Source: a virus
DNA: 29,687 nucleotides
Strand: one strand, 5' to 3'
Virus record (IMG/VR): IMGVR_UViG_3300029309_000234
Span: 1-29,687 of that record
The position numbers and the translations under genes are program-made. The notes below the pieces were generated by a model, which searched no databases, was not told the DNA's origin, and was given only the letters and a program-made list of their open reading frames with translations. Of this stretch, positions 3,779 to 26,153 are shown in pieces; position 1 is the first letter of the stretch, and every line of letters starts with the position of its first letter.

Positions 3779-5950
3779 TTAAAACATCGCAGTCTGCAAA
3801 CGCCCCTCAATAGCCGCGGCACAGTTCCTCTTTGCCACGTCGAAGTAACTGGGCTTTAGCTCAAACCCTAGCCCCTTCCTGTTCATCTGCAAAGACTGAA
3901 AAACCTCTGATCCGATGCCCATAAAGGGAGTAAAAACAACGTCCCCCGGATTAGAGTACAAGTGAACCAGTCGCTCGATTGTGTCTAGCTGCAAAGGGCA
4001 AATGTGCTTCTCGTCGCGATTATCGCGGGCGGTTGTGTATTGCAATGTTCGAGTTTGGTTGATGTCCATCCACACCGGACTAGCGTACTTCTGCCACAGG
4101 TCTACCGGTAGCTCGGTATTGGCGACTGGATTATCCCGCTCTCCGTCTTTGCGGAATACAAGCACATAGTCTGGTAGCCCCACAGCCGACATGGTAGAGT
4201 CTTTCTTGACCTGCTTATGTAACAATTCAATGGCCTTGGTGCGCTGCATCTGAATCACCGGGTCCTTCCAAATTGTCACGCGGGAATGATATATAAACCC
4301 ATGCTTCTCAAAAGCCTCTCGAATCATTCCGGAGAAGTCGCGAATGCCCCGAAAGCCCTCGACGCCCTTTTTAATCATCAAGTCCATGCAGTGAACGGCC
4401 ACGTTTCTACCGCTTTGCGTGACCCTATATAGGTGCTCCACCAAGTAGTCAAAGTGAACAAGGAACTCCTGCCAGTCGGCACTGTTGCCCATGTCTTCGG
4501 CGTAGTCGGAATATGTGTAAAGGTCAGCAAAGGGAGGAGAGAATACGGAAAGTCCCACGCTCTCGTCCGGTACACTGCGGATTAATTCAACGCAGTCCCC
4601 GCGTCTAATTGTGTAGTCGTCGGTCACGACCTCCTCGATGTTATAGGTCACATCCTCCACCGGTTCCTCGCAGTTGATGGTATTGGTCATGGCTTCGTTC
4701 ATAGTATCGAATTGGTCTTGTTTTCGGTTGATGGATTGGATGACGTTCTCCATCGTATCGGTGGAGACGATGTAGATGTTGACGTCTTTCTTTTGTCCGA
4801 AGCGATAGGAGCGCCGGATGGCCTGATACAACCCTTCAAAGCTGAAGTCTAGAGACGCAAATATCTGATTCGGGCAGTGCTGAAAGTTGAGGCCAAACTG
4901 GGCAATCTTGGTTTTAGTGACCAACACTCTAAACTTGCCCGCCTTGAATTCAAGGAAGGCGTTTTCTTTCTGCTCTGGGGTCTGACTACCGGATACCTCT
5001 ACGGCGTCCGGGATGAGGTCTAGGATGAACTTCGCCTCCTCATTCTGTTTGACCCAAACGATGAACGGCTCGTTTGATGCCTTAACGATTTCGGCGGCGG
5101 CTTCCATCCTTGGAACTTTGGTCAACCGCAGTTCGGCGTTAAAGTTTGTAGCACTCACCGCGACCTCATTGAATAGCATCCCGTGGTCCCGTTGGTCTGT
5201 CTCAATCTGCCGCTCGTGAAAGTGCAGCGGCGGCAGCTCATGGTCTGCGTCTTCATATCCAAGGTCTGACGGCTTGCGGATGACCGAAGCCCATGTTCCT
5301 ACCCACTTATAAAACGACTTCTCCGCGTGTCCTTTGAGTCTCCATTTTTGAGTGCTGGCCCCGTCATGGATAAAGTAGGTTGCGCTCATCTCGGTACGCG
5401 AGAGCACGTCGAGAAACTCCGAATGGTTGCCCAGCTCCAAGGGATCGTTAGGACTGGGAGTCGCAGTACAGGCCAGCTTGTAGGGTATGTCCCGGCAGCG
5501 GTCCAGAATCATCTGCTTCATCTTGCCCATGAAGTTCTTGAGGATTGAGGACTCGTCCAATACAACGCCACCAAACCCATCAAGGTCCACTTTGTGAAAA
5601 CTCTCGTAATTGGTGATAATGACGCTATTTGAGTATGCGCGGTTCTCCTCCCACGGGACGACATGGATGCCAAACTTCTCGCCCTCGGCCACTGTTTGAG
5701 CGGCAACCGCAAGAGGGCAAAGAATAAGGACGTTTTGCCCTATGGCCTTTGTGACCTGGTGCGCCCACTCTAACTGCATGAGGGTCTTGCCTAGTCCGCA
5801 GTCCGCGAAGATGGCATACCGCCCACGGCGGCAAGCCTTTTGTACTATCTCCCGCTGAAACGGGAACAGGTGACGGTTTAGGTTTTGCGGTTCAATTCCT
5901 ACGCTCTGAGAGGACTTGACCTTATTCTCTATGAATTGTTCGTACTTCAT
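3779..5950 (-). CDS. SF2 (SNF2-like) helicase fused to N4/N6 DNA methyltransferase
   Basis: The 723-aa protein has two enzymes in one chain. Residues 25-410 are an SF2 helicase: ADCGLGKT (Walker A, 49-56), LDESS (motif II, 131-135), TATP (162-165) and QAIRRSYRFGQ (motif VI, 376-386) as in SNF2-type translocases. Residues 445-715 are an amino-methyltransferase of beta order: SPPF (catalytic motif IV, 471-474), then ICPLQL (motif X) and FTPFMGIGSEVF (SAM-binding motif I, 673-684). No target-recognition or nuclease domain is obvious. It should bind DNA, use ATP and methylate adenine or cytosine. It is the last gene of a leftward operon and its ATG overlaps the previous stop (ATGA). Likely roles are protection from host restriction or marking phage DNA; there is no restriction partner nearby. 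It is also the only clear helicase in the genome, so a role in replication is possible. Confidence 0.92.
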   Translation of the reverse strand: MKYEQFIENKVKSSQSVGIEPQNLNRHLFPFQREIVQKACRRGRYAIFADCGLGKTLMQLEWAHQVTKAIGQNVLILCPLAVAAQTVAEGEKFGIHVVPWEENRAYSNSVIITNYESFHKVDLDGFGGVVLDESSILKNFMGKMKQMILDRCRDIPYKLACTATPSPNDPLELGNHSEFLDVLSRTEMSATYFIHDGASTQKWRLKGHAEKSFYKWVGTWASVIRKPSDLGYEDADHELPPLHFHERQIETDQRDHGMLFNEVAVSATNFNAELRLTKVPRMEAAAEIVKASNEPFIVWVKQNEEAKFILDLIPDAVEVSGSQTPEQKENAFLEFKAGKFRVLVTKTKIAQFGLNFQHCPNQIFASLDFSFEGLYQAIRRSYRFGQKKDVNIYIVSTDTMENVIQSINRKQDQFDTMNEAMTNTINCEEPVEDVTYNIEEVVTDDYTIRRGDCVELIRSVPDESVGLSVFSPPFADLYTYSDYAEDMGNSADWQEFLVHFDYLVEHLYRVTQSGRNVAVHCMDLMIKKGVEGFRGIRDFSGMIREAFEKHGFIYHSRVTIWKDPVIQMQRTKAIELLHKQVKKDSTMSAVGLPDYVLVFRKDGERDNPVANTELPVDLWQKYASPVWMDINQTRTLQYTTARDNRDEKHICPLQLDTIERLVHLYSNPGDVVFTPFMGIGSEVFQSLQMNRKGLGFELKPSYFDVAKRNCAAAIEGRLQTAMF

Positions 5951-12561: not shown

Positions 12562-12740
12562 TGACACACGAAGAAGCCTTTAATCAGATTGTGAGCGCTA
12601 TGCCACACCTAGACCACAAATGCGCTGACGCACAAGGAAGGGTTTACGTAGAAGCTATGATTCAATTTTACCGAGACTCGGACACCGGTCACCTTACCCG
12701 TGCTTGGATTGCCCAAAAAGTGGACATCAAAGAGGTATGA
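12561..12740 (+). CDS. Hypothetical small protein before terminase
   Basis: A 59-aa frame that fills the gap exactly: its ATG overlaps the preceding TGA by one base and its TGA overlaps the ATG of the small terminase (ATGA). Product starts MTHEEAFNQIVSAMPHLDHK and ends WIAQKVDIKEV; helical, His-rich, no membrane segment. The double overlap is strong support for a real gene. Function unknown. Confidence 0.65.
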   Translation: MTHEEAFNQIVSAMPHLDHKCADAQGRVYVEAMIQFYRDSDTGHLTRAWIAQKVDIKEV

Positions 12741-13090
12741 ATCCGACAAATACGACGGACAAAAAAAAGGCCCTGTTGGAGGCGTTGGAGAAGTCGCTGG
12801 GCGTCATTACCCAAGCTTGCAAGATGGTGGGCGTTCATCGCTCCACCCATTACGAATGGATGAAGACGGACCCGGACTATAAGACCGCCGTCAAGGATTT
12901 GTCCGAGGTTGCCATCGATTTCGCCGAATCCCATCTCCACAAACTCATCCGTGACGGCAACCCCGCTGCAACCATCTTCTTCCTCAAGACCAAGGGCAAG
13001 GGCCGGGGGTATGTGGAGCGCCAAGAGATAGCCGTGGCAGAGAAGAAGCCGCTCTCCTGGTTCACCGATGAGAACGCCGACGTGAGTTGA
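12737..13090 (+). CDS. terS: Terminase small subunit
   Basis: The ATG at 12737 overlaps the previous stop. The 117-aa protein has an N-terminal helix-turn-helix (ALLEALEKSLGVITQACKMV then GVHRSTHYEWMKTDPDY) that would recognise phage DNA, followed by a helical region FAESHLHKLIRDGNPAATIF where small terminases oligomerise, and a short tail ending in ENADVS for contact with the large subunit. The large subunit follows at once, with its TTG start in this gene's stop codon. Confidence 0.88.
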   Translation: MNPTNTTDKKKALLEALEKSLGVITQACKMVGVHRSTHYEWMKTDPDYKTAVKDLSEVAIDFAESHLHKLIRDGNPAATIFFLKTKGKGRGYVERQEIAVAEKKPLSWFTDENADVS

Positions 13091-14223
13091 GGCAGCCCGC
13101 CACCTACTACCACGTCAAAGGGTGCGCCTCCCGTGTGCAGGTTCACCAAGGCGGAACCCGATCGGGCAAGACGTACTCTATACTCCAGAGCCTCGTCGAG
13201 CTGTGCTATCAGAACGAGAACTCCGGGGCGGTCATCACCATAGCCCGGAAGACATTCCCCGCGCTGAGGGCTACGGCCATGCGTGACTTCTTTTCCATCC
13301 TCGAACGGGAGGACGTATATACCCCAGACCTACACAACAAATCGGAAGCCAACTATGTCCTGTTCGGTAACCTTGTCGAGTTCATCAGCGTAGACCAGCC
13401 GCAGAAGGTAAGGGGACGCAAGAGGGAGATTCTGTTCGTCAACGAAGCCAACGAGCTGTCCCTGGAGGATTGGAGGCAGCTGCTGCTAAGGACGACGGGA
13501 AAGGTCATTATCGACTTCAACCCCTCGGATGAATACCATTGGATTTACGAGGAGGTCATCCCCCGATCGGATGCGTCCTTCTTCCGGACCACGTACAAGG
13601 ACAACCCATACCTAGACGCGGCCACCGTCGCAGAGATTGAACGCCTCAAAGATGCCGACCCGAACTACTGGCGCATATACGGACTCGGACAGAGGGGGGT
13701 AAATCAGGCGGCCGTCTTTACGTGGGAGGTTGGAGAGATAGCCGGGAAGCGCATAGGGACCGGCCTGGACTTCGGATTCACCAACGACCCCACCGCCGTC
13801 ATCGACGTATACCAAGACGGGCACACCCTTATCCTTCACGAAAGGTTGTATTCGACCGGACTCACCAACCCGGACATCTCCGAGGAGTTGGAGAAGCTGG
13901 ACTGTAAAACCATCATAGCGGATAGCGCCGAGCCGAAGAGCATAGAAGAGCTTTTCCGATTGGGCCACAACGTCAAGCCAGCAAGGAAGGGGCCGGATTC
14001 CGTGCGGCAGGGTATCGACATCATGCGCCGCCATAAGCTGCTGGTCACCGCCGACAGCACACACCTACAAAAGGAACTCAGGGCGTACCGATGGGAGCAG
14101 GACAAGAACGGTAGGAACCTAAACAGACCCGTCGACAAGGACAATCACGGGATCGACGCGGTGCGGTATGTGTGTCTCAACCTGCTCACCACGTCCCGGT
14201 CCGGGTCCTACTTCCTCGCATAA
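13087..14223 (+). CDS. terL: Terminase large subunit
   Basis: The start is TTG 13087, coupled to the preceding stop (ttga); no earlier ATG fits. The 378-aa protein has the ATPase motor with Walker A GGTRSGKT (22-29), Walker B ILFVNEANE (115-123) and the coupling segment IIDFNPS (141-147). The RNase-H-like nuclease has acidic residues at GLDFGFTNDPTA (Asp228), IIADSAE (Asp279) and KDNHGIDAVRY (Asp352, Asp357). All key residues are present, so it should cut and package the genome. It is at the short end of the family but complete. A PBSX-like type of terminase is likely; the packaging mode is not proven by sequence. Confidence 0.95.
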   Translation: MRQPATYYHVKGCASRVQVHQGGTRSGKTYSILQSLVELCYQNENSGAVITIARKTFPALRATAMRDFFSILEREDVYTPDLHNKSEANYVLFGNLVEFISVDQPQKVRGRKREILFVNEANELSLEDWRQLLLRTTGKVIIDFNPSDEYHWIYEEVIPRSDASFFRTTYKDNPYLDAATVAEIERLKDADPNYWRIYGLGQRGVNQAAVFTWEVGEIAGKRIGTGLDFGFTNDPTAVIDVYQDGHTLILHERLYSTGLTNPDISEELEKLDCKTIIADSAEPKSIEELFRLGHNVKPARKGPDSVRQGIDIMRRHKLLVTADSTHLQKELRAYRWEQDKNGRNLNRPVDKDNHGIDAVRYVCLNLLTTSRSGSYFLA

Positions 14224-14247
14224 GAGAGAAAAATATTTGCTTATTTG

Positions 14248-14278
14248 TTTGGCGTATTGATTTATTCCCCTATCTTTG
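14248..14278 (+). promoter_or_regulatory. Bacteroidota-type promoter of a mini transcription unit, probably leaderless
   Basis: TTTG (14248-14251), a 19-bp spacer and TATCTTTG (14271-14278), a full match to TAnnTTTG. The start codon at 14283 is 4 nt past the box, exactly as at 10326/10331. No palindrome is present here, unlike the early promoters. Confidence 0.75.
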
Positions 14279-14282
14279 AGGT

Positions 14283-14471
14283 ATGTACTACGAACAAAAC
14301 ACCACCGCTCAACAGCTCTACACCGGAGACGTTTTTATCTGCCTGACTAGCGGCAAGCAATACACGTTCGACGGGATTGATGGAGTGGACTTGTGGGTGA
14401 CCGACGAGAATGGCAGCACATTCGCTATTGACCCCACAGAATCCGTTCAGCATATCGCGTGTAATATCTAA
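14283..14471 (+). CDS. Small beta-rich hypothetical protein, possible accessory (moron-like) gene
   Basis: A 62-aa product, MYYEQNTTAQQLYTGDVFIC onward, with alternating hydrophobic pattern (YTFDGIDGVDLWVTDENGST) that suggests a small SH3-like or beta-barrel fold. It has its own promoter, whose -7 box ends 4 nt before the ATG, and lies with a 25-aa membrane peptide in a unit closed by a strong terminator. This independent expression between terminase and tail genes is the hallmark of a moron. Function unknown. Confidence 0.7.
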   Translation: MYYEQNTTAQQLYTGDVFICLTSGKQYTFDGIDGVDLWVTDENGSTFAIDPTESVQHIACNI

Positions 14472-14474
14472 GCC

Positions 14475-14552
14475 ATGAAAGACATAAGACCCATCCTCGA
14501 GACCTTCGCCTTCGCTTTGGCACTGATCGTCTTCGTCGGACTCCTCGCATAA
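14475..14552 (+). CDS. 25-aa membrane peptide
   Basis: An ATG 3 nt after the previous stop begins a 25-codon frame: a polar start (MKDIRPILE) then one hydrophobic helix (TFAFALALIVFVGLLA). The terminator starts 5 bp after its stop. Short length makes chance possible, but the composition and tight fit in the unit support a real peptide, of unknown function. Confidence 0.5.
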   Translation: MKDIRPILETFAFALALIVFVGLLA

Positions 14553-14557
14553 TTAAC

Positions 14558-14579
14558 AGGCCCTCCGGGGCCTTTTTTT
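14558..14579 (+). terminator. Rho-independent terminator of the mini-unit
   Basis: A 6-bp stem AGGCCC / GGGCCT with loop TCCG, followed by seven T. This is the clearest intrinsic terminator in the window. The next start codon is only 30 bp downstream. Confidence 0.92.
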
Positions 14580-14608
14580 ATGTCCTAGAGTTTCGTCTAT
14601 TTGAATAC

Positions 14609-15327
14609 GTGAAGAAGACCATCACAATACCGGAGGACTTGTACGATATCACTATCGACCAATACCGCCGCGTACAAGCCATACCCGAAGGGGACGAGCT
14701 GCGCCAAGTAGTGGAGACCATTTCCATTCTGTGCCACGTCACCAAGGATGAGGTGATGGCAATGGAGAAGAAGGATATCCAGCACATCGGGGGCGTACTG
14801 GGTGGCATCATCGACAAGTACGACGAGGACTACCCGCTCGAGCGCACCATCGAACTAGACACCCGCTACGGATTCCATCCGAACCTCTCCCGGATTACCC
14901 TTGCCGAATTCGCAGACATAGAAACCCTCTGCAAGGATTCCCTCGATACCCACCTGCCCCAGGTCATGGGGATACTATACCGCCCCATCGTAGAAGAACA
15001 CGGCGACTTCTACCGTATCGAAGACTACGACGGCGAGGACCGCTCCGAATACTTCAAGGAGATGAAGATGGCGCACGCACTCGGGGCAGCCGCTTTTTTT
15101 TTGCGTACCGGGACGGAATTAGCCGACGCTTTGGACAGCTTTTCCAAGGCGGTGAAGGATCCAAGCTATCCGAGAAATACGGATGGTTCGCCACGTTTGT
15201 CCATCTCGCAGGGGAGGACATTACTAAATTACCGCAGATTGAAAGGACGCACCTCGAGACGGCACTCGCGTGGCTTGCATACGAACAAGACCGGGCACTC
15301 ATCCAAAAGCAACAAGTGAACACATGA
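14609..15327 (+). CDS. Tail-assembly-chaperone-like protein, probable -1 frameshift at T9
   Basis: The GTG at 14609 opens a frame of 236 aa that stops at 15319. The first 165 residues look like a conserved Bacteroidota phage virion-assembly protein (YGFHPNLSRITLAEFADIET, VMGILYRPIVEEHGDFYRIE, HALGAAAFF). The last 40 codons of that frame are basic and low in order (RTLLNYRRLKGRTSRRHSRG), whereas the -1 frame over the same bases reads as an ordinary protein: SKLSEKYGWFATFVHLAGED, ITKLPQIERTHLETALAWLA, YEQDRALIQKQQVNT. It stops at 15325-15327, where that TGA overlaps the next ATG (ATGA) as elsewhere in the genome. At 15094-15102 there is a run of nine T that forms the canonical slippery heptamer T-TTT-TTT in the zero frame. 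I take the main product to be the -1 fusion of about 239 aa; a homopolymer error is the alternative. Confidence 0.75.
15094..15102 (+). promoter_or_regulatory. T9 slippery site for -1 frameshift
   Basis: Nine T in the frame gct-ttt-ttt-ttg give a perfect T-TTT-TTT heptamer. A -1 slip here joins AAAFF to FAYRDGISRRFGQLF and leads into the KYGWFATF domain. It could instead mark a missing T in the assembly. Confidence 0.6.
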
Positions 15328-15782
15328 GAACAGTTAACCAAATCCTCGACGAGCTGGAAGGCATTGCACTCGATCACCGCTTCATCAACTCCTTCAAGCA
15401 GGGGGAACTCTCCGAGGTAGATATCAAGAAGCTTGCAGGCAACAAGTACCCCATCTGCCACGCCGATGTCTCCAGCGCCACAATCGAGCGCGGGACGTTG
15501 GTGTATAGCTTGGACGTGCTGGTCATGGATATGATACTCCCCGGACAGACGGACGCACAGGAACAGTATTCGGACACTCTCCGCACCCTCATTGATATCG
15601 TCAGCCAATACGCGCAGGTATTGAGCGCACAGAGCGACGTGGACCGAGACGTCACGATCGAGCTACCGGTGGATTGTGAACCCTTCACGGCAAGGTTCGA
15701 CAACCTGCTCACGGGGTGGGTTGGTACGATTCGCCTTGTGACCTCCAACGACCTCGACCTCTGCGGGGCCGCTTTCGCGTGA
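15324..15782 (+). CDS. Neck / tail-terminator-like protein
   Basis: The ATG at 15324 overlaps the -1-frame stop of the preceding gene; the frame upstream of it is a shadow. The 152-aa protein resembles a conserved Bacteroidota phage family found between connector and tail genes: VNQILDELEGIALDHRFINS, YPICHADVSSATIERGTLVY, LDVLVMDMILPGQTDAQEQY, SDTLRTLIDIVSQYAQVLS and a C-terminal strand region ending in NLLTGWVGTIRLVTSNDLDL. It is probably a tail-terminator or head-tail joining protein, by family and position. It is followed by a terminator hairpin. Confidence 0.7.
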   Translation: MRTVNQILDELEGIALDHRFINSFKQGELSEVDIKKLAGNKYPICHADVSSATIERGTLVYSLDVLVMDMILPGQTDAQEQYSDTLRTLIDIVSQYAQVLSAQSDVDRDVTIELPVDCEPFTARFDNLLTGWVGTIRLVTSNDLDLCGAAFA

Positions 15783-15804
15783 TAGCCCCACATACAAACA
15801 GACG

Positions 15805-15832
15805 GCCCTGCTTCGGCGGGGCTTTCTATTTT
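15805..15832 (+). terminator. Hairpin terminator with TTCG loop
   Basis: A 7-bp stem GCCCTGC / GCGGGGC (one T-G pair) closed by a stable TTCG tetraloop, then tttctatttt. It ends only 5 nt before the GTG of the next gene. Confidence 0.85.
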
Positions 15833-15837
15833 AAGAC

Positions 15838-16416
15838 GTGAAGACCCACATAACCATAGACGGTACCCGCGTCCCCATGACCAACTCCATGAAGGAGATG
15901 GGCAAGATTGGCAAGGAGGTACGCCGCCGCGCCCGCATATCCCTCAAGGCAAGAGGCAAGGTGGTGACCGGCAACCTCTACAACTCCATCCGCTACGAGC
16001 AGGGAGTATCCAGAGACGAGAAGAGCCTGAACCTACGCTTTAGCTTTCCCGGTGCAGACTACGCGAAGTTTGTCGACGAGGGTGTACGGGGTGCTATGAG
16101 TAGCGCCAAGGCCCCGCGCTCCCCGTTCCGGTTTGGGTCGGGATCGGGTCCGTCGGGTGGGCTGCGTCCCGCTATCGATAAATGGGTGGTGAAGAAAGGC
16201 ATCGCGCCCCGTGGCGCTGGCGGTAGGTTTGCATCGCGGAAGGGCATGGTGTATGCCATCAGCCGCTCCATATATCAAACCGGCATCAAGCCCTCCTATT
16301 TCTTCACGAACGCCTACGACCGAACTCTAAAGAAGCACAACGCCAAACTGGAGAAGGCCGTGGGCGAGGATATCGGAAACGCAATAAAGACCCTACTCGA
16401 TGGCGGTACAGTTTGA
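15838..16416 (+). CDS. HK97 gp10-like neck / tail-completion protein
   Basis: A 192-aa product from GTG 15838. It has the hallmarks of the gp10-like family: a basic helical start (KEVRRRARISLKARGKVVTG), then NLYNSIRYEQ, the conserved ADYAKFVDEGVRG (about 73-85), a Gly/Ser/Arg-rich loop (FRFGSGSGPSGGLRPAIDKW), and the C-terminal ISRSIYQTGIKPSYFFTNAY. The family links the head-tail connector to the tail. The start codon comes immediately after a terminator, and the leader and first codons resemble those at 14595 (see findings). The next gene overlaps by 17 bp. Confidence 0.82.
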   Translation: MKTHITIDGTRVPMTNSMKEMGKIGKEVRRRARISLKARGKVVTGNLYNSIRYEQGVSRDEKSLNLRFSFPGADYAKFVDEGVRGAMSSAKAPRSPFRFGSGSGPSGGLRPAIDKWVVKKGIAPRGAGGRFASRKGMVYAISRSIYQTGIKPSYFFTNAYDRTLKKHNAKLEKAVGEDIGNAIKTLLDGGTV

Positions 16417-17776
16417 ATTCACCCCTTCCACGTTCAACTTCCAAAGCACAGCCGACCCGATTATTATTCAGGTGTCGGAAAGTACCGTGCAGACGTGGTA
16501 CAAGTACCGCTTCATCTTGCAGGTCCTCGACGAGGCGGACAATGTTTTGGCCAAGCTCAAGACGCACATGTTGAGTTCCACGAATCAGGTGGCCGTCTTC
16601 GACATTAGCAGAGTGGTCGACGACTACCTTGCGCCGACTCGGTGGAATAGCAGCGACACAGACGCCTCCGTGGTCACCGTAGGAAGAACCGGCCACTTTC
16701 CGGCGTTTCTTATTGGATTGGCTACGGAGCATAGCCCAGTAAAACGCATCTACTTACGCCTTGGATTTGAATCCGCAACGAGCGCAACGGCCGCCCCTAC
16801 TGAAACCCTGAACGTTGTAAATACCAGCGTCAAATGTTTTAGAAATGAGTTCATCAACGACGGCGAGAACTACGGAGACAGGGGCAAGGAGTTTCAATTG
16901 GCGCAGGCTACTTCAAATTTTATGAGTAGCGCCCCAGACCTCGGCGTGGTATCTGGTTGGGGTAGCGCCTTCGGCAAGGTGAGGCATCACAGAATAGGAT
17001 CGAATCAAGCGGCAGTCGTTACGTGGAGCAATGACGGCGGATCGGGCACATACATCCACGTGCGAGGGTTTGAGGCGGACGGGACTATAATAGGCAGCGC
17101 TAATATTGAAACCATATCCGTAGGCGGAACCTTAAACATAAGCCAAGACCACCAGCGGGTGTATTACATGGGTATCGGTCCGCTCAACTTGACCGAACAC
17201 GCGGCGGCAGCATCGAACTCCGACCTGACTACAATCATGACGAGCGCGAGTCTCGCCTATTATGAAATCTACGCATCCAATACGACCGCAGTAGCGAGCT
17301 CCTTCCAGGACTCTATCGTCCACCGCTGGACCATCGACGACGGATGCAGCAAGTACCCCCGCGTACAACTTATGTTCCAGAACCGCCACAGCGGATGGGA
17401 CTTCTTCAACTTCGACCAAAGGAGCGAGGAGAAGCTAACCAAGATTGAGCGCAGCCAATACAACCGCCCGCGCGGGAACTGGGACAGCGTCACCACCTCG
17501 GTCGATTGGACGTACAACGGATGGGAGCGGGGAGTCACCACCACCGCAGTAAAGGCAGAGAAGGAAGTTCGAGTCTCGACGGACTACATAGATGCAGGCT
17601 TTGCCGACCACTTGCGGGACATTGCGCTTTCTCGCGCTGTGTTTATCGTAGACGGGGACAACCTTATCCCGGTCGTCGTGACCGACTCGGAGTACCTCTT
17701 CAAGACTTCGGTGAATGACAAGCTCGTCAGCTACTCCTTTACCTTGCAGTACAGCAACCGACCCCGCACCAAGTGA
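16400..17776 (+). CDS. Tail structural protein (baseplate / distal tail-like)
   Basis: A 458-aa product from ATG 16400. The N-terminal 130 residues are beta-rich (FEFTPSTFNFQSTADPIIIQ, YKYRFILQVLDEADNVLAKL), followed by a long beta-rich domain and a distinct C-terminal half: RVQLMFQNRHSGWDFFNFDQ, ERSQYNRPRGNWDSV, VRVSTDYIDAGFADHLRDIA and LIPVVVTDSEYLFKTSVNDK. I recognise this C-terminal pattern from Bacteroidota phage tail proteins. It lies with the tail-hub candidate ahead of the tape measure, so a place in the tail tip is likely. No enzymatic motif is seen. Stop and start of the next gene overlap (gtga). Confidence 0.75.
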   Translation: MAVQFEFTPSTFNFQSTADPIIIQVSESTVQTWYKYRFILQVLDEADNVLAKLKTHMLSSTNQVAVFDISRVVDDYLAPTRWNSSDTDASVVTVGRTGHFPAFLIGLATEHSPVKRIYLRLGFESATSATAAPTETLNVVNTSVKCFRNEFINDGENYGDRGKEFQLAQATSNFMSSAPDLGVVSGWGSAFGKVRHHRIGSNQAAVVTWSNDGGSGTYIHVRGFEADGTIIGSANIETISVGGTLNISQDHQRVYYMGIGPLNLTEHAAAASNSDLTTIMTSASLAYYEIYASNTTAVASSFQDSIVHRWTIDDGCSKYPRVQLMFQNRHSGWDFFNFDQRSEEKLTKIERSQYNRPRGNWDSVTTSVDWTYNGWERGVTTTAVKAEKEVRVSTDYIDAGFADHLRDIALSRAVFIVDGDNLIPVVVTDSEYLFKTSVNDKLVSYSFTLQYSNRPRTK

Positions 17777-20631
17777 TTCGCCTTGTAGCCCTCGACCAGA
17801 CCACCAACACCCAGACCACGCTCGAACTGGAGGGGTCTCCGTCTATCTCTCTGAATTTGGCCGTGGCTAAACCGGGGGAGACGATGCAACGCCACGCGCC
17901 GTACTCGCAGACCTTCCGCCTCCCGTTCACCAATACGAATAACCAATTCTTCGCGCACTTCTACGAGGTCACCCTTTCCGATGGGGACTTTGACCCTACG
18001 CAGAAGACGGAGGTGGAGCTGTCCGAGGACGGGGTGCCGGTGATGCGTGGCTCGATGCAACTGCGGGCCGTGCGACTTATGGCGGAGGTGTACGAAGTCA
18101 ACGTCTTGAGCGACGTGGGCGACCTCTTTGCGGAGATGGGGAGTAAGCTATTAGAGGCTGCATTCCGGGACGGAGATACCGACTACGTCACGATTTTTGA
18201 CTACACGCAAACGGCGGCCAATATCGTCACCTCCCAGACGCTGACCAATAACATCTGCCAAGACACAGACGCCACAGATAATGGCACGGTCATCGTCCCC
18301 CTAGCCGACCACGGCCTGAGCGTGACACAACAACCCATCACCGCCGACGACGGGTACGGGCTTCTCGATAGTGGAATATCAAGCGCGGCCACGGTCACGC
18401 CGGAGATGCTCAAGCCGGCCATCAGACTCAAGGCGGTAACCGACCGCATAATCGAGCAAGCCGGGTTCTATTACTCGTCTACCTTCTTCAGTTCTGCGTT
18501 CTACGAGAGTATGTATATGACCCTCGCCACGGAGCAAGAGCGAACCATATTCAATCCGTCGCATCGATGCCTCGCCTACCTGAACACGGCGCAAACGGTC
18601 AACTCTGACGGCCTCACACTCATCACCATCAACACCGACTCCGCGCTGGATGGGTTCGATGAGAACAACAACTTCAACACTACGACGAGCAAGTACACCA
18701 CGCCCAGCGTTGGCGCGTACACCTTCACGGCTCAGGCCAAGCTCACCCTCAGCGGGGCCACTTCATTCAGCATAACGGCAGCCCTGCGAATTGTCAGCGC
18801 CCAGGGCGTAATTGCTGCACAGGTCTTCGACTTCGAGTTGATGGACACCAACCCCGTCATCGTCACGGCTACAAATCCCCTGCCGGTAGTGCTGCCGGCA
18901 AACACGGACGTCTTCGTTCAATTAGGTGTCGAAGGTTTGGGGTCTCTGACTATTGAGGTAGATGGCATCGACGGGGGCACCACCGGGCCGACCTTCTTCC
19001 GATGTACTGCCGCACCGGAGCAGGCGGTAAGCGTACCTGCCAACCTCCCGCGCATCAAACAGAAGGAACTCTTCGCCGACCTCTGCCAAAGGTTCAACCT
19101 CGTAATCGAAGCCAGCCCCGACGACCCCAAGAAACTCCTCATCGAGCCTTACGCCGATTGGATTGGTACGGGGGTCGATACCTACTGGACGGATAAGTTG
19201 GACCTAGACAAGGAGCGCACCCTCTCGCCTACCTCCTCCATCAAGTCGGCCCGAATCAAGTTCTCCGATTTAGACGCATCCGATGTAGGCAACGCGAACC
19301 GGACGGACTCCCTAGGCCGCGTCTACGGCACTTTCGACCAAGACATAGACGACGACTTTGCTACGGGTACCCTATCCAATGCGCCCGTCTTCGCTCCGTA
19401 TTTCGTGTACTCGGTGCCGACCCTTGCGGGCGATCCCGCCACAGCACTCCCCAACCTACTCATCCATAGGTCATACGCTACCGACGCCGCAGCGGTAAAG
19501 CCGCAAGCCGGACCGCCGAAGCTGTTCTTCGCGCTGGGCAACCAAACTCTGTCGCAGTCGGTGTACATCAATGACACGGCGCTCACAACGTACCAATTCT
19601 GTAGCCCGTTCTCAGAGACGCCGGCCGACTCGGACACGCAGACCCTGCAATGGAACAGTTCAGATACGACCTTCATGAACCAGCACCCGCTCCTCGGTGC
19701 GGTGCCTCCTGTTGGCTTGCATAGGACGTACTGGAGCGCATACCTCGCAGACATCTACGACGCTGACGCGCGGGTATTTGAAGCGCATTTTTACCTCACC
19801 CCTTCCGACATCCGGAACCTCCGATTCAATGACCGCTTCCATATCCTTGGGGCGGCCTACAAATTGACTGAGGTATCGGGCTATGAGATAGGCACGGGAG
19901 AAAGTACACTGTGCAAGTTCCTCCGCGACTTGGGCAGGAGTACGGTAGGGGCCTGTCAGAACATCCCATCAGTATCCAACATCAACGGCGTGGTGAGCTT
20001 CGTCAACGCAGCCGGGGCTGTGGTGGCCGACCCCGGTCGAATATGCTGTGAGGCGTTTGGGTATTACTACGATGCCACGACCAACACCTGCCGATGGGAT
20101 GTCGATGGCCCGACCCCACCCGCACCACCTCCGCCCGCCGACTTCGTCAACCCCATCCCCAACTTCGATGGGAGTTTGCCGCGACCTGTTTCGCCTACCG
20201 GAGTACGTACCCGCACTATAGATCGCACCTCCGGGGGGCAGGCCTTGGTGGATACGTTTGTCCTGATGGTACAAACCACGGACGCCTCAGCTACGGCTCT
20301 ATCCAGTCCCGATGGGCGAAGCATTCAAGTAGACTCCAATACACTGGCCTCTGGAGTCATTCACTTGAGCTGTGCCAATGCCCAAGCCACGGACCGCTTT
20401 GAGAGCAAGATGGAGACCTTCCGCTTCCTTGCCAATGGTCACGCCGGGACGGTCACCATTTCGGCCACGTCGGGCACTTCTGAGTCTTCCGGTTCTCCTG
20501 GCACTCGCCGACTGACTGCGGCCATAGCAAATGGGGTTCTCACTATCAGCGCGAACGGCGACGCTTCGACCACGATTCAATGGATAGCGCACGTGGAGAT
20601 GGTGAGGATATACACGCAGGCAGGAACATGA
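17773..20631 (+). CDS. Large tail / baseplate-hub-like protein
   Basis: A GTG start overlaps the previous stop and gives a 952-aa protein, the largest in the window. The N-terminal 130 residues have the conserved ISLNLAVAKPGETMQRHAPY, SQTFRLPFTNTNNQFFAHFY and YEVNVLSDVGDLFAEMGSKL pattern of a Bacteroidota phage tail family. The middle (about 420-720) contains LPRIKQKELFADLCQRFNLV and further hub-like beta segments (TYWTDKLDLDKERTLSPTSS). Near residue 760 there are two Cys (RICCEAFGYYYDATTNTC), then a proline-rich linker (PTPPAPPPPAD) and a separate Thr/Ser/Gly-rich domain of about 160 residues that could bind a surface sugar. It probably forms the tail tip; the C-terminal domain may vary with the host. 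Confidence 0.75.
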   Translation: MIRLVALDQTTNTQTTLELEGSPSISLNLAVAKPGETMQRHAPYSQTFRLPFTNTNNQFFAHFYEVTLSDGDFDPTQKTEVELSEDGVPVMRGSMQLRAVRLMAEVYEVNVLSDVGDLFAEMGSKLLEAAFRDGDTDYVTIFDYTQTAANIVTSQTLTNNICQDTDATDNGTVIVPLADHGLSVTQQPITADDGYGLLDSGISSAATVTPEMLKPAIRLKAVTDRIIEQAGFYYSSTFFSSAFYESMYMTLATEQERTIFNPSHRCLAYLNTAQTVNSDGLTLITINTDSALDGFDENNNFNTTTSKYTTPSVGAYTFTAQAKLTLSGATSFSITAALRIVSAQGVIAAQVFDFELMDTNPVIVTATNPLPVVLPANTDVFVQLGVEGLGSLTIEVDGIDGGTTGPTFFRCTAAPEQAVSVPANLPRIKQKELFADLCQRFNLVIEASPDDPKKLLIEPYADWIGTGVDTYWTDKLDLDKERTLSPTSSIKSARIKFSDLDASDVGNANRTDSLGRVYGTFDQDIDDDFATGTLSNAPVFAPYFVYSVPTLAGDPATALPNLLIHRSYATDAAAVKPQAGPPKLFFALGNQTLSQSVYINDTALTTYQFCSPFSETPADSDTQTLQWNSSDTTFMNQHPLLGAVPPVGLHRTYWSAYLADIYDADARVFEAHFYLTPSDIRNLRFNDRFHILGAAYKLTEVSGYEIGTGESTLCKFLRDLGRSTVGACQNIPSVSNINGVVSFVNAAGAVVADPGRICCEAFGYYYDATTNTCRWDVDGPTPPAPPPPADFVNPIPNFDGSLPRPVSPTGVRTRTIDRTSGGQALVDTFVLMVQTTDASATALSSPDGRSIQVDSNTLASGVIHLSCANAQATDRFESKMETFRFLANGHAGTVTISATSGTSESSGSPGTRRLTAAIANGVLTISANGDASTTIQWIAHVEMVRIYTQAGT

Positions 20632-20819
20632 AGCAATACCTCGACGACATAGGGCAGGCGGTGCCGCGGGTGCTGACTATCGCGGCAGAATACGAACTCC
20701 GCGGGTGTCCGGATTGCCTTTTGTTATATGGATATTATGAGTGGGGTCGCCCGTGGTGGCGCAAAGTCCTGCTCGGAGTAAGCAATGGCGCAGGACTACG
20801 AAATAAACGTAAAGGTTAA
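20628..20819 (+). CDS. Small CxxC protein between tail hub and tape measure
   Basis: The ATG at 20628 overlaps the previous stop (ATGA) and gives 63 aa; the 3' end overlaps the tape measure gene by 35 bp. It has a short helical N-terminus (YLDDIGQAVPRVLTIAAEYE), a CPDC motif at residues 28-31, and an aromatic-rich part (LLLYGYYEWGRPWWRK). Size and place suggest a small tail-assembly or tail-tip part; CPDC could bind zinc or be redox-active. Family not recognised. Confidence 0.6.
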   Translation: MKQYLDDIGQAVPRVLTIAAEYELRGCPDCLLLYGYYEWGRPWWRKVLLGVSNGAGLRNKRKG

Positions 20820-22518
20820 AGGGGTCGACACGGCCAAGGCTGAGGTCGACGGCCTGACCGACAGCGTTAGCAACGTCGGCAAATCCACCGGGGCATTAGA
20901 GGGACAACTCGACAAGCTCACCGGTGGGGCCATTTCCGGGTTCAAACGTGCGGCCCAGGGGACCAAGGCTTTTGTGACCGGTCTCAAGCTCACCCGTGCT
21001 GCCATCATTGCCACCGGGATTGGGGCGCTGGTGGTTGGGGTCACGGCATTGGTCGGAGCCTTCACGAGCACCCGCCGCGGAGCTCGGCAGCTTCAGGTGA
21101 TTATGGCCGGCCTCGGCGCTGTGGTGGAGCGCACCACCGCGCACTTCCAAGCGGCTGGAGGTTTCATTGTAAACCTGTTCAGCAAAGGACCGAGGGAAGC
21201 CGCCAAAGAATACCGCGCCGAAGTAGACAAGTTGCCGGGGTCCATGTCGGAAGCGGTCCGCGCTACGATGGAACTCCAGAAGGCCGAACAAGCCCTTCTC
21301 GATACGCGCCGGGAGTTGACCGTAGCCGACGCTAAAGGGAGGCAGGAAATAGCGCGTCTCCGTCTTGTGGCACGGGACAGAAGTCGAGACACCGAGGAGC
21401 GTATTGACGCGGCAAAGCGGGCTATGGCCATAGAGCTGGACCTCGTAAAACAACGGGAGGATGCAGCGGCTGAGGAGCTGCGTATTGCCCAAGAGCGCGC
21501 CGCAATGAGCGACACCTCCGATGAGGACCTGCAACGTTTGGCCGACCTTGAGGCCAACCTTATTAACATCCGCACTCAGTCCTTCATGACGCAACGCCGC
21601 CTCCAAGAGGAGGTCCAAAGCGTGGAGCGCGAAGCCACGGCAGAGCGAAAGGCGCAGGAGGCAGAGCGCACCAAATCACGGGAAGCCGAAGCCAAGGCCG
21701 CCGAAGATGCAGCCGCCGCAACCATCAAAGCCGAGCAAAGCGTTGTCGACGAATTGGACAAGCGTAGCCGCGCCAGCCTAGACGCGCGGACGAAGGAAAT
21801 ACTGGCGCTCGAAGACTTCTACAACGCGCAACTCGACAAGGCAGTAGAGAACGCAGAACTGCAAAAGGAAATCGAAGAACAGCGGCAGACTGAGCTGTTG
21901 GCTATGCGTGAGCGCTTTCGGATGGAAGACGCAGCAAAGGCAGAAGAAGCCCGACAGAAAGAAGCCGAGGCCAATCAAAAAGTCCGAGATGAGGAGCTTG
22001 ATCGCGAGCGCGCGTCGTTGCAAGCTGAGATGAGCTTAAAGGAGGAGATGACTTCAAACGCCTTCTCTATTATCTCCAACCTTAATCAGGCTTTTAGCAA
22101 GCAAGGAGAGCAGCAATCGAAAAAGAGCTTTGAAAGGACCAAGGCCATCAGCATTGCGGAAACTTTAGTGTCCACCTATCTATCTGCTCAAAAAGCGTTT
22201 GAGTCTCAATTCAAGCCTTTGTCTACAGTTGACAGCCCTATCCGTGGCGCTTTAGCCGCAGGCGCTGCGGTTGCCAGTGGTTTGGCTCGTGTTGCCGCTA
22301 TTAAGTCACAGCAGTTTACCGGAGGCGGCGGGACAGGTGGCGTCGGGGGCGGCAATGTGTCTGGCGGGGGCGGTGGCTCCGTCGGTGTAGACGTCGGATC
22401 CCTCGTACCCAATACAGCAACGCCAACACCGGAACCCGTTCGGGCATATGTAGTATCGAACGAAATCAGCAACCAGCAGGCCCTCGACAGAGAGCTGCAA
22501 ATTCAGACAACGCTATGA
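20785..22518 (+). CDS. Tape measure protein
   Basis: The 577-aa protein begins MAQDYEINVKVKGVDTAKAE, the usual tape measure start, then has a hydrophobic stretch near residues 70-95 (AAIIATGIGALVVGVTALVG) and a long charged coiled-coil of about 300 residues (ELQKAEQALLDTRRELTV, KAQEAERTKSREAEAKAAED). It ends with the block typical of Bacteroidota tape measures (AISIAETLVSTYLSAQKAFE, GALAAGAAVASGLARVAAIK) and a Gly-rich tail. At about 1.5 angstrom per residue the tail would be near 85-90 nm, a rule-of-thumb inference. No lytic domain is embedded. The stop overlaps the protease start (ATGA). Confidence 0.92.
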   Translation: MAQDYEINVKVKGVDTAKAEVDGLTDSVSNVGKSTGALEGQLDKLTGGAISGFKRAAQGTKAFVTGLKLTRAAIIATGIGALVVGVTALVGAFTSTRRGARQLQVIMAGLGAVVERTTAHFQAAGGFIVNLFSKGPREAAKEYRAEVDKLPGSMSEAVRATMELQKAEQALLDTRRELTVADAKGRQEIARLRLVARDRSRDTEERIDAAKRAMAIELDLVKQREDAAAEELRIAQERAAMSDTSDEDLQRLADLEANLINIRTQSFMTQRRLQEEVQSVEREATAERKAQEAERTKSREAEAKAAEDAAAATIKAEQSVVDELDKRSRASLDARTKEILALEDFYNAQLDKAVENAELQKEIEEQRQTELLAMRERFRMEDAAKAEEARQKEAEANQKVRDEELDRERASLQAEMSLKEEMTSNAFSIISNLNQAFSKQGEQQSKKSFERTKAISIAETLVSTYLSAQKAFESQFKPLSTVDSPIRGALAAGAAVASGLARVAAIKSQQFTGGGGTGGVGGGNVSGGGGGSVGVDVGSLVPNTATPTPEPVRAYVVSNEISNQQALDRELQIQTTL

Positions 22519-23261
22519 GGACAGTTGAGCTATTGATTGACGAGGAACAAGAGGACTTTGGAGTGGAGGCCATCAGCCTCGTGAAGTTCCCCGCCATCGA
22601 GGAGAATTTCGTGTACTTCAACAAAGAGCAGAAGTTGACGCTCGCCAAAATCGACGAGGAAAGGCAGCTCTTAATTGGCCCGGCGCTGATTCCGGATAAG
22701 ATGATTCCGCGCTATGACGAGCAGAACGAGGAAGAGTTTGAGGTGTACTTCTCGAAGGAGACGGTCGAGCAAGCCGCGGAGCTATTCATGCGCCAGAAGA
22801 GGAACGACGAGTATACCATCGAACACAAATCCAAGGTCGATGGGCTGTCCATCTTCGAGTCTTGGATAGTGGCCGACAAAGACAACGACAAGGCCAGCCT
22901 GTACGGATTCAATGTCCCGGTTGGTACTTGGATGGTATCGGTCAAGGTCCACAACTCCGAGGTCTGGATGGATGTAAAGGACAAAAAATACAGGGGGTTC
23001 TCTATCGAGGGGTATTTCATTGACAAGCTCATCAAGATGGAAGACGTCACAGTGGAGGCCATAGCCGAAGCTATTCGTGAGGTATTGGAGCCGGTGGCGT
23101 TTCTCGATGGAAAGCCCCTCTTTGAGACCCCGCTTGAAGCTAACCTAATGGCCGAGGCCCTCGGATGCGAGGGACACCACAAGCACCAAATTAATGACAG
23201 GGTTATGTATATGCCCTGCAAGACCCACGAGGAGCTGGACCCGCTCCTTGCAAATGAATGA
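22515..23261 (+). CDS. Prohead protease, XkdF-like
   Basis: A 248-aa protein matching the XkdF-type phage serine protease pattern: ISLVKFPAIEENFVYF near the N-terminus, the conserved YTIEHKSKVDG with His near residue 101, ESWIVADKDNDKASLYGF, VPVGTWMVSVKVHNSEVWMD and the catalytic-type RGFSIEGYF (Ser near residue 163). It should cleave scaffold and capsid during head maturation. It lies just before the scaffold and capsid genes, the usual order. The C-terminal part (CEGHHKHQINDRVMYMPC) has two Cys and several His and could bind a metal. Confidence 0.87.
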   Translation: MRTVELLIDEEQEDFGVEAISLVKFPAIEENFVYFNKEQKLTLAKIDEERQLLIGPALIPDKMIPRYDEQNEEEFEVYFSKETVEQAAELFMRQKRNDEYTIEHKSKVDGLSIFESWIVADKDNDKASLYGFNVPVGTWMVSVKVHNSEVWMDVKDKKYRGFSIEGYFIDKLIKMEDVTVEAIAEAIREVLEPVAFLDGKPLFETPLEANLMAEALGCEGHHKHQINDRVMYMPCKTHEELDPLLANE

Positions 23262-23958
23262 AAATCCAATATATCCCGCATTGAAACCCCGACCCATGTC
23301 CGTGATTGAAAAACTAAAAGAGGCCGTCCGTTCCGTAGTACAGGAGCGCCAGGACCTCTACGCCGAAGCCCGCCTTAATGATGGTCGGGTAATTGCTACC
23401 GAAGCCGAACAGTTCTCTGCCGGTGCCCCTGTCCGAGTTTTGAGCGACGACGGAGAGGCCGCCCCGCTGGAGGCCGGAACATACGAACTCTCCGACGGTG
23501 GAGAGGTAACCGTAGACGCCGAGTCTCAAGTGGTGGAAATGGAAGAAGAGGAGAAGAAGGACGAGGAGATGCAAGAGGAGGACAAGGACGAAATGGGAGC
23601 AGTTAAAGCCGCCCTCATCGAAGAGTTCCAAATCTCTGAGGATGTCGCCGATCAAATTATGGACGTCATCAAGGAGGCCATGAAGCCTGCAAAGATGGAA
23701 GAGGAGAAAGAGGAGGAGATGGAAGAAGAAGAAAAGAAGGAGGAGATGCAGCAGGTCGAGATGGCCGCCGTCACCGACCTCACCCACGAGATGGCCGTGG
23801 CACTCGAAGCCATCAACAAGCGCTTGGAGCAGTTGGAGTCTGCACCCGCCGCAAGCCCCGACCGAGTGCTGCCTAAGCACAACCCAATCCCGAAGGCCGA
23901 CAACCCCCGGTCTTCGTCTTTTGACAACGCATTCAACATCATCAATTCATTCAAATGA
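23254..23958 (+). CDS. Scaffold-like head protein
   Basis: Two starts are possible: ATG 23254, which overlaps the protease stop and gives 234 aa, and ATG 23296 (MSVIEKLKEAVRSV), which gives 220 aa and would leave an unusual 34-bp gap; I list the longer. After a helical N-terminus comes a beta-like region (VLSDDGEAAPLEAGTYELS), then two acidic blocks of Glu, Lys and Met (about residues 90-115 and 145-170) separated by an EF-hand-like length of helix (ALIEEFQISEDVADQIMDVI). A coiled-coil (MAVALEAINKRLEQLES) and a basic/polar tail ending in NAFNIINSFK follow. Acidic low-complexity helices directly before the capsid gene are typical of scaffolds. Confidence 0.78.
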   Translation: MNENPIYPALKPRPMSVIEKLKEAVRSVVQERQDLYAEARLNDGRVIATEAEQFSAGAPVRVLSDDGEAAPLEAGTYELSDGGEVTVDAESQVVEMEEEEKKDEEMQEEDKDEMGAVKAALIEEFQISEDVADQIMDVIKEAMKPAKMEEEKEEEMEEEEKKEEMQQVEMAAVTDLTHEMAVALEAINKRLEQLESAPAASPDRVLPKHNPIPKADNPRSSSFDNAFNIINSFK

Positions 23959-24932
23959 TCCCCGCAAAATCTAAGAAGTACGACTTCGACATTACGGTCA
24001 ACCCAAACACCTACGCCGGTGAGTTGGCTCTGCCGTATGTAACGGCTGCCATCCTCGGTGCCGAAACCATCAACAAGGGCCGTGCCCGCCTCATCGAAGG
24101 CGTAGTCCACAAGGCCGTTATTAACGCCCTCGACTACGACGGAGGCCTCTTGCAGGCTGCCGGTTGTACATTCAACGACGGTGCATCCATGACGCTCTCC
24201 GAGCAGGTGGTAACGCTCAATGACTTGATGGTCAACGAAGCCATCTGCCGTGCTACGGTCTTCCCAACCTTTATGGCCGCACAGGGTCGCATGGTTCGGG
24301 ACGGTCAAATCCCACCAAACTTCACCGAGTTCCTCCTCGCCACTACCGCAGAGCAGGCAGGCAAGTCTCTCGAGTCCCTGATGTGGGCCGCCGATTCTGG
24401 TTCCGTTTGGGGTCTGGGTCTGCTGTCTAACGACGGAGTCATTGACGAGGCCGGAATCGACGCTTCTGCTATGGCAGATTTCGCTGAGGCCGTATGTGAT
24501 GCAACCTTCAGCAAGGCCAACATCCTCGCCAACCTTGACGCAGTCTTCGCCGCTGCATCCGCTACCCCTGGCATCCTCGGAAAGCCCGGAGTCGGATTCT
24601 ACATCTCTTACGAAGCTTACGCTTTCTTCCAGCAAGCTGTCGCCGACAAGGGAACGGAAGGCAACTACAACAAGGACCTCAAGGAGGTGACGTACTTGGG
24701 TTACCCAGTGTACCCCACGAGCGGCATCCCTAACAGTGCCGACGCCATTGTCTTCACCTACCCCGATAACATCGTGGTCGGAACCAATGCATACACCGGA
24801 AACGAGGCCGCAAACCTCATCCCCGCATACCAGTACGACGGAAGCGACAACGTGAAGGTCACGATGAACTTCGCCGTAGGTTGCAATGTCGCCGTCGCCG
24901 CTGACGGTGTGGTTGGATTCGCATTCACCTGA
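23955..24932 (+). CDS. Major capsid protein
   Basis: The 325-aa protein follows the scaffold with an ATGA overlap and has the sequence style of HK97-fold capsids in Bacteroidota phages: YAGELALPYVTAAILGAETI, LLQAAGCTFNDGASMTLSEQ, LNDLMVNEAICRATVFPTF, GKPGVGFYISYEAYAFFQQA, LKEVTYLGYPVYPTSGIPNS, ADAIVFTYPDNIVVGTNAYT and VKVTMNFAVGCNVAVAADGV. The segment with surface residues is rich in Ala and Gly, as expected for a dense shell. Size and neighbours (protease, scaffold) support the call. A very different antisense frame over this gene is a codon-bias artefact (see rejected items). Confidence 0.92.
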   Translation: MIPAKSKKYDFDITVNPNTYAGELALPYVTAAILGAETINKGRARLIEGVVHKAVINALDYDGGLLQAAGCTFNDGASMTLSEQVVTLNDLMVNEAICRATVFPTFMAAQGRMVRDGQIPPNFTEFLLATTAEQAGKSLESLMWAADSGSVWGLGLLSNDGVIDEAGIDASAMADFAEAVCDATFSKANILANLDAVFAAASATPGILGKPGVGFYISYEAYAFFQQAVADKGTEGNYNKDLKEVTYLGYPVYPTSGIPNSADAIVFTYPDNIVVGTNAYTGNEAANLIPAYQYDGSDNVKVTMNFAVGCNVAVAADGVVGFAFT

Positions 24933-24935
24933 TAC

Positions 24936-25544
24936 ATGGCTTGTACTATTACCCTCGGCCGCGCGCTGGATTGCAAGGACGCCCTTGGAGGTTTGACGAA
25001 GGTCTTCTTCGTCAACAACTTCTCGGACGGACTTGTGACCGCCGCGGGGACGGGTAACGGCACAGCAGGAACGGCAACCGTAGACGCTACCGGAGGGAAG
25101 ACGTTTACGATTACTGACCTCCCTTCGATGACTGTACTTCAGTACGACCTTCGTCCGGACCTGTCGAGCTTTACCATTAACGTCCAATCTGATCCCGCTA
25201 CCGGCGCCTCTCTTTTTGAGCAGACGCTGAACGTGGTACTTCAGAAGCACCAAGAAGCAGATCCAGAGCAAATCCGTCTCATCAGCCGGAACCGCATGCA
25301 AATCTTCGTCTTGGACAACAACGATAACCTCTTTCTCTTTGGTGCCAGCCACGGCATGGACTTGAATGGAGGAACGCTTACCAGTGGCGCCGCCCGCAAT
25401 GAGATGAGCGGACAGACCTTGACCTTCGCCGGTCGTGAGGCTGCTCCTTATTATCTTGTAAACGGTACTGCTGGAGTCGGCACCGCGAAGTATCCCTTCG
25501 ACGGAATCACTACCGACGCAAATATTACCATCACAACGGGCTGA
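24936..25544 (+). CDS. Major tail tube-like structural protein
   Basis: A 202-aa protein starting 3 bp after the capsid stop. The pattern CTITLGRALDCKDALGGLTK, VFFVNNF, then DPATGASLFEQTLNVVLQKH, IRLISRNRMQIFVLDNNDNL, LFLFGASHGMDLNGGTLTSG and MSGQTLTFAGREAAPYYL matches a virion family found directly after the capsid gene in many Bacteroidota phages and thought to form the tail tube. The gene lies in the head block rather than with the other tail genes. A capsid decoration role is an alternative. It ends near the terminator at 25572. Confidence 0.72.
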   Translation: MACTITLGRALDCKDALGGLTKVFFVNNFSDGLVTAAGTGNGTAGTATVDATGGKTFTITDLPSMTVLQYDLRPDLSSFTINVQSDPATGASLFEQTLNVVLQKHQEADPEQIRLISRNRMQIFVLDNNDNLFLFGASHGMDLNGGTLTSGAARNEMSGQTLTFAGREAAPYYLVNGTAGVGTAKYPFDGITTDANITITTG

Positions 25545-25571
25545 GGACCGTTATTTGTTCGTGTGTTTGGG

Positions 25572-25600
25572 AAGGGGCTGCCGAGAGGTGGCCCTTTCTT
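25572..25600 (+). terminator. Long hairpin terminator after capsid and tail-tube genes
   Basis: An 11-bp stem with loop GAGA: AAGGGGCTGCC pairs with GGTGGCCCTTT (three G-T pairs), followed by ctt. It would end the transcript of the abundant capsid and tube genes. The next ATG is 14 nt further on. Confidence 0.85.
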
Positions 25601-25613
25601 ATATGTCTATTTG

Positions 25614-26153
25614 ATGATTGTCGTGGTCAAGAATAACCCCGGAAGCGTACAGAATACCGTGTACCTGACGCCGAAGGAAAAGCGAGGAGCGGCAAATGTC
25701 GCGCTCTATGGGGCCACCATTTCCGCCCTGGGGATGGAGCTGAAGAGCCTGACCACGGATAAAACGGCGATGGTCAACGCCCGCGTCCTGACTGTAACGG
25801 ATAGGTTCACCACCTTCGTCTTCGATGCTCAGGTGCCGACAGCCGATACCAGCGTCGACCTATCCGGACCGTCTTGGCCGGAAGGGTATTTCCAGTACCG
25901 CATCGTAGAAAGAAGCTCCTCTTCTGACGTGCAGGCTATCTCTTCCACGGACGTAATCTTGGAGGAGGGCTTGGGCTATCTTGTCCGGGGACTACAGACG
26001 GGAATCCTACTCACCGAATCCGGCGACAACCTCACCACCGAGGAGCCGGGAATGATACTCAAAGAAGATGCCACGGCGACGACAGAAGCATACCAAGAAA
26101 CAACCTACGCAAGCCACACAGACGACTCCTCAACCTTTACCTTCTATGAGTAA
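25614..26153 (+). CDS. Virion-associated protein, unknown
   Basis: The ATG at 25614 gives 179 aa (MIVVVKNNPGSVQNTVYLTP); an open frame upstream to 25563 crosses the terminator. The first 130 residues are beta-rich (VNARVLTVTDRFTTFVFDA, FQYRIVERSSSSDVQA), and the C-terminus carries repeated LLTESGDNLTTEEPGMILKE motifs that occur at the ends of several phage virion proteins. It resembles a small Bacteroidota family often next to tail genes. Likely a tail or neck accessory. The start follows directly on tctatttg. The stop overlaps the portal start by 8 bp. Confidence 0.68.
   Translation: MIVVVKNNPGSVQNTVYLTPKEKRGAANVALYGATISALGMELKSLTTDKTAMVNARVLTVTDRFTTFVFDAQVPTADTSVDLSGPSWPEGYFQYRIVERSSSSDVQAISSTDVILEEGLGYLVRGLQTGILLTESGDNLTTEEPGMILKEDATATTEAYQETTYASHTDDSSTFTFYE

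Follow-up and report, generated by a model that had tools for sequence, protein, structure and literature searches.

A conserved run of at least nine T joins two reading frames of a putative assembly gene in a diverse phage family, probably through slippage by RNA polymerase

The tail genes of tailed phages are a textbook case of ribosomal -1 frameshifting. In the tail assembly chaperone genes of lambda (G/GT) and P2 (E/E+E'), one start yields two proteins with a common N-terminus by means of a -1 shift. The P2 site is rich in T (TTTTTTG), and no hairpin accompanies it (PMC3091744). In the lambda G/GT type, tails need the short and the long product in a fixed ratio. Two products can also arise from slippage of RNA polymerase on a homopolymeric run. 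On the A11 run of tssM1, a gene of a tail-like machine in Citrobacter rodentium, such slippage gives truncated and full-length forms that are both needed in a certain ratio (PMC4256274); tssM3 of Yersinia is a second case. Similarly, the polymerase slips on a run of nine T/A in dnaX of Thermus thermophilus, and two products are made (PMC5009743). Nine A or T in a row suffice for efficient slippage in vivo (PMC5009743), the frequency of one-base insertions grows exponentially as an A/T run lengthens (PMC5574713), and the E. coli RNA polymerase slips more on poly(T) (PMC6260861).

Here we describe a phage gene, referred to as the slip gene, that appears to share features with both groups. Like G/GT and E/E+E', it would make two proteins with a common N-terminus from one start through a -1 shift, and like tssM1 and dnaX it has a poly-A/T run within the gene. 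It differs from the lambda and P2 genes in lying after terL and not after the major tail gene, in having no clear homology to the known chaperone families, in the conserved run of at least nine T that may stand in any phase, in the long overlap of the two frames (16-86 codons) and in the existence of unbroken homologs. In Citrobacter the A11 run concerns one gene, tssM1, whereas a run of T9 or more is found here across a very diverse phage family, with slippage being putative. The dnaX gene is unrelated, and in the phage gene it is the unslipped mRNA that would encode the short form, the long form being in the -1 frame.

The window, which is the whole stretch of DNA that we analysed, is a 29.7-kb virus record (29,687 nucleotides) carrying a tailed-phage structural module. 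The terminase genes terS (12704) and terL (13087-14223) are followed by one small ORF and then by the slip gene. Further downstream are the gene next to the slip gene (15324..15782, plus strand), a neck/tail-completion-like gene (15838), two large genes, the tape measure (start 20785; phrog_9483, E 1e-11), a protease (22515), the probable major capsid gene (23955) and the portal (26068). Across 12704-28475, the order is terS-terL-tail-tape measure-protease-capsid-portal, and siphophage-like modules do not usually have their portal gene downstream of the capsid genes. Elsewhere in the window, at 3779-5950 on the minus strand, helicase-like and DNA methyltransferase parts are fused in one protein (phrog_16, phrog_67).

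The slip gene starts with GTG, and its zero-frame ORF (14609..15319, plus strand; 236 aa; phrog_32199, E 3e-10) comprises an N-terminal domain and an alternative C-terminal tail, which together would be the short-form product. The T9 slip site (15094..15102, plus strand) reads GCT TTT TTT TTG in the zero frame, and contains the heptamer T_TTT_TTT (15094..15100, plus strand). After the run, the zero frame continues for 72 codons to a TGA at 15317-15319. Over the same bases the -1 frame (15100..15327, plus strand) encodes FFFAYRDGISRRFGQLFQGGEGSKLSEKYGWFATFVHLAGEDITKLPQIERTHLETALAWLAYEQDRALIQKQQVNT, a C-terminal domain with a KYGWF motif, and ends in a TGA at 15325-15327. This stop overlaps the ATG of the next gene (15324-15326; ATGA), located 5 nt past the zero-frame stop. 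The zero-frame part and the -1 part together make a 239-aa fusion. No other T9 or A9 occurs in the window, where 0.21 is expected from shuffles. Folding was done separately for the zero-frame product and for the C-terminal domain. In the AF2 model of the former (pLDDT 77), residues 199-236 are disordered and a long helix (residues 154-183) spans the slip at residue 163.

The initial annotation had described the nine T with their in-frame heptamer, a zero frame staying open for about 70 codons, the overlap of the -1 stop with the next ATG, and a position just after the terminase unit and far ahead of the tape measure. We recovered all of these, the last with five predicted ORFs up to the tape measure. 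The search of the -1-frame peptide against phage proteins that it had proposed gave phrog_38404 (E 2e-4), and its impression of a well-formed -1 protein was borne out by the frame-specific conservation described below.

Our preferred reading, to which we assign a probability of about 0.7, is that programmed slippage of RNA polymerase at the T9 lets one start give rise to two proteins. Most mRNAs would carry nine copied U and give the 236-aa zero-frame product. In a fraction of the transcripts, the polymerase would slip on the run and add one U. Since one inserted U leads to exactly the -1 frame, ordinary translation of these mRNAs would then yield the full-length protein of 239 aa, which includes the conserved C-terminal domain. 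From evidence that is comparative throughout, we infer the transcriptional nature of the slip, the ratio of the products and a role in virion (probably tail) assembly.

We surveyed the relatives of the gene as follows. When IMG/VR was first scanned for the zero-frame protein, 61 relatives came up, and all of those reaching the site had exactly nine T. Stepwise profile searches extended the set to clade B (∼37% identity), to L308, to the Nonlabens phages P12024S/L and to ∼75 more distant contigs, most of them with 25–33% identity to the Nonlabens phages. Altogether 193 related genes were examined, down to ∼25% protein identity, and were thinned to 57 representative lineages; the scans counted about 300 or more further relatives beyond the 193 loci read. 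The phages of this T-run family are mainly marine, and the family is large and very diverse. Judged from the hosts of relatives, its hosts are probably Bacteroidota. Neither the slip gene nor TerL had a relative among the GTDB genome contigs scanned, and in Bacteroides and Phocaeicola phages with a related TerL the gene following terL was unrelated.

An uninterrupted T run was present at the homologous place in 193/193 loci covering it (T9 in 183, T10 in 9 and T12 in 1), drawn from many metagenomes and isolate genomes, with loci within a clade not being independent of each other. The C-terminal domain, with its KWGWY-type motif, was in the -1 frame in every one of them and in-frame in none. 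In clade B and the Nonlabens phages, the zero frame stops 21–25 codons past the run, leaving an obvious short product; in P12024S/L the two parts are gp38 and gp39. Rare exceptions in layout were an in-frame TAG near the -1 end (L012), an indel near the end (L013) and an early zero-frame stop (L047).

These data bear directly on two alternatives. Long homopolymers are generally error-prone, and the initial annotation had named a homopolymer error as its alternative to frameshifting. An error of sequencing or assembly, or a decaying gene, is refuted by the comparative data and retains a negligible probability, as 193 loci from many sources agree in keeping the run, none of them is in frame, and purifying selection acts on each half in its correct frame. 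Homopolymer tracts also often mediate phase variation, by which the run length would vary within a population and the long form would be switched on and off at the level of DNA. We consider this hardly credible: none of the 193 loci has a run length that joins the halves in frame, and the T10 and T12 variants retain the -1 relation.

Selection on the two frames was followed in an ungapped alignment of 54 genes. Before the T9 run, the zero-frame third codon positions varied most (0.244 versus 0.061 and 0.033), while after the run it was the -1 third positions (0.146 versus 0.011 and 0.028), so selection follows the fusion. The -1 protein downstream of the run was almost invariant, and the last part of the zero-frame tail was variable. 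A frame switch further downstream than T9, which had been the first impression from LRTGTELADALDSF, was ruled out, as the variation at -1 third positions starts directly after the run.

Next, we consider which features of the run are conserved. Its length never falls below nine T, whatever the phase, and the only odd states among the 193 loci are longer (T10, T12), never T8. The run starts at codon position 3 (phase 2) in 118 loci, at position 2 (phase 1) in 72 and at position 1 (phase 0) in 3, and on the tree the phase or length state must have changed 10 times or more. The two T outside the heptamer can both be on the right (0+2), one on each side (1+1) or both on the left (2+0). When the flank sides were shuffled, 11.5 of the 57 lineages were expected to have fewer than nine T, against 0/57 observed, in a test that ignores phylogeny. 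In the phase-2 loci, the run opens on the wobble base of an Ala, Asn or Gly codon, and its ninth T occupies the wobble position of a Phe codon in the -1 frame. The first of these bases is always T, though the same genes freely use GCC/GCA/GCG and AAC, and the codon of the ninth is always TTT, though TTC makes up 36% of Phe codons. Both of these silent escape sites are fixed in 118/118 phase-2 loci, an argument that is partly confounded by local synonymous constraint beside the slip; some T of the run are also fixed by amino acids (Phe, Leu). Two features expected of poly-A/T slippage were observed: an uninterrupted run of 8–9 or more at a frame transition under purifying selection (193/193), and a phase that drifts through 0, 1 and 2 while the length is kept. 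A run of at least nine in any phase, without a common RNA structure, points to a length-dependent and phase-independent process, that is, RNA polymerase slippage.

The initial annotation had proposed a programmed -1 ribosomal frameshift. The shift into the -1 frame at T9 is strongly supported by the 193 loci, and the ribosomal mechanism is the weaker reading of it, as it is the run of at least nine T in any phase, not the heptamer alone, that is conserved. By this mechanism, paired tRNAs would slip back by one base on T_TTT_TTT (or T_TTT_TTG) and give the same fusion. The heptamer, which is of the X XXY YYZ type, does stand in the zero frame, at the same codon position, in 57/57 representative lineages, and P2 E/E+E' provides a precedent at TTTTTTG without a hairpin (PMC3091744). 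However, the T_TTT_TTT heptamer needs only seven T in its own phase (eight or nine with flanks in the other phases), and yet the run is never shorter than nine, on whichever side the additional T are found.

We also looked for a conserved stimulator of ribosomal shifting, either a 3' hairpin or pseudoknot or an upstream Shine-Dalgarno-like site, and neither was seen across clades. In the 80 nt downstream of the run, the mean z was -2.8 in the window clade, where the stable structure speaks for the ribosomal reading, and 0.2 in clade B, which is unstructured. In the window clade, RNAalifold on 26 sequences found no compensatory or covarying pair and a column-shuffle test gave a z of about -1; an Rfam search returned nothing relevant. 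The stable structure, restricted to this clade, may still be an RNA element. Bacteroidota, the probable hosts, rely little on Shine-Dalgarno pairing, which also weighs against the ribosomal reading. A stimulator is not universal for -1 ribosomal shifts, as P2 is without one (PMC3091744). Altogether we regard ribosomal frameshifting as possible but unlikely. Any T9 run includes an in-frame heptamer and both features are invariant, so that both mechanisms could act on the same run; nothing indicates that two are needed, and we consider this combination very improbable.

The zero-frame tail itself is probably not neutral, as judged from its openness and from the suppressed synonymous variation after the slip. 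In the 57 lineages the zero frame stays open for 46.6 codons on average, compared to 19.4 in codon-shuffled controls (P<0.05 in 35% of lineages). In clade B, synonymous variation in the new frame was low at codons -1 to +17, the stretch of overlap with a 22-codon zero-frame tail; in the window clade it was low at about +9 to +50 codons after the slip. In the window, this suppressed stretch (15124..15258, plus strand), with -1-frame third-position diversity mostly 0.04–0.45 of the upstream level, may reflect overlapping zero-frame coding or an RNA element. The tail may be a second, overlapping C-terminus. Alternatively, an early zero-frame stop may be disfavored, as it would break translational coupling and shut off the next gene, which in the window has its ATG 5 nt past the zero-frame stop. 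The zero-frame tails of a large subgroup (L391-L461) look alike (NL..EL....YL ... KNG.GINQF ... LQDLKISLN*), which suggests real dual coding and more than an open frame. Clade B (e.g. L284) has another patch of low synonymous variation, far from the slip, at codons +54 to +63 (ESAFTYLAYE region).

A terminator-like hairpin with T7 (14558..14579, plus strand) lies upstream of the slip gene, and a second one at 15804-15823; the two bracket the slip gene and its neighbor, which may form a separate two-gene transcription unit, given these flanking hairpins. The upstream hairpin is also present in L018, L048 and L053.

With the zero-frame model as query, Foldseek picked out Flavobacterium phage 6H, through which we reached Duneviridae, Leef, a Microcystis phage and Bacteroides phage BT-TP2. 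In the latter four, the homolog is one uninterrupted ORF of 259–301 aa. The fusion and the single-frame homologs could be aligned end to end by profile-profile comparison (hhalign probability 98.3, E 1.5e-13). The proteins of phrog_25418 (Duneviridae, Helgolandviridae: Flavobacterium 2A, laban6-1, Cellulophaga Ingeline, Polaribacter Leef) are homologous over the whole fusion. They differ from the slip gene in being single ORFs without a run of nine T, and only a T6 is seen at the homologous FF codons in several of them. As the unbroken homologs align along the entire -1 fusion, the fusion corresponds to the whole protein, and the zero-frame product would be a short form made in addition. In the tree, a branch (support 93/92, with a long-branch caution) separates the T-run family from the other sequences. 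Thus, the full-length form is probably ancestral and still unbroken in other phage families, and the T run would add the short form, setting a ratio of the two. In phage 6H (L321, 10352-10927, minus strand) the homolog is broken and a stretch of ∼25 nt differs, while its sisters 2A and FPSV-F7 carry one ORF of 293 aa at this place; the break may be a genuine lesion or stem from an error in the deposit.

What the protein does was addressed by fold and family searches. The gene had been called chaperone-like in the initial annotation, and this is plausible but weakly supported. Foldseek gave weak matches to two annotated tail assembly chaperones (E 0.035 and 0.16). A Pfam search gave no match, the PHROG families matched are of unknown function, fold and sequence searches against the PDB gave nothing useful, and the gene position is non-canonical. 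As in lambda G/GT, a single start serves two overlapping frames that a -1 shift connects, but the gene follows terL and does not lie between the major tail protein and the tape measure; in phage Ingeline, two genes separate the homolog from the tape measure. We therefore do not class the slip gene, which would work like the G/GT pair, as a member of that group, given its position and the lack of a recognised family. A role in tail assembly is our best guess, with about an even chance of being right, based on the surrounding morphogenesis genes, the two products and the weak fold matches to annotated chaperones.

Taken together, we find it rather probable that selection keeps the length (at least nine) and not the codon phase of the poly-T run in a large and ancient family making a virion-assembly protein of two lengths via transcriptional slippage, and that the zero-frame tail is kept open in many lineages, as a second C-terminus or against polarity on the next gene. 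The T9 frameshift was previously unannotated, and the full-length product has been missed by gene finders and databases. This explains a misannotation, in which the C-terminal half sits in databases as small orphan proteins (such as P12024S gp39, phrog_38404). With T9, T10 and T12 in three phases, the family provides a range of natural slip sites on which slippage in Bacteroidota could be calibrated, and the question of the dual product is directly testable in the cultured Nonlabens phages. If our reading is true, a whole phage family would reach through RNA polymerase slippage the same two-product outcome, so that the dual-product logic would be possible at another level, and for phages, polymerase slippage of such age and spread would be unusual.
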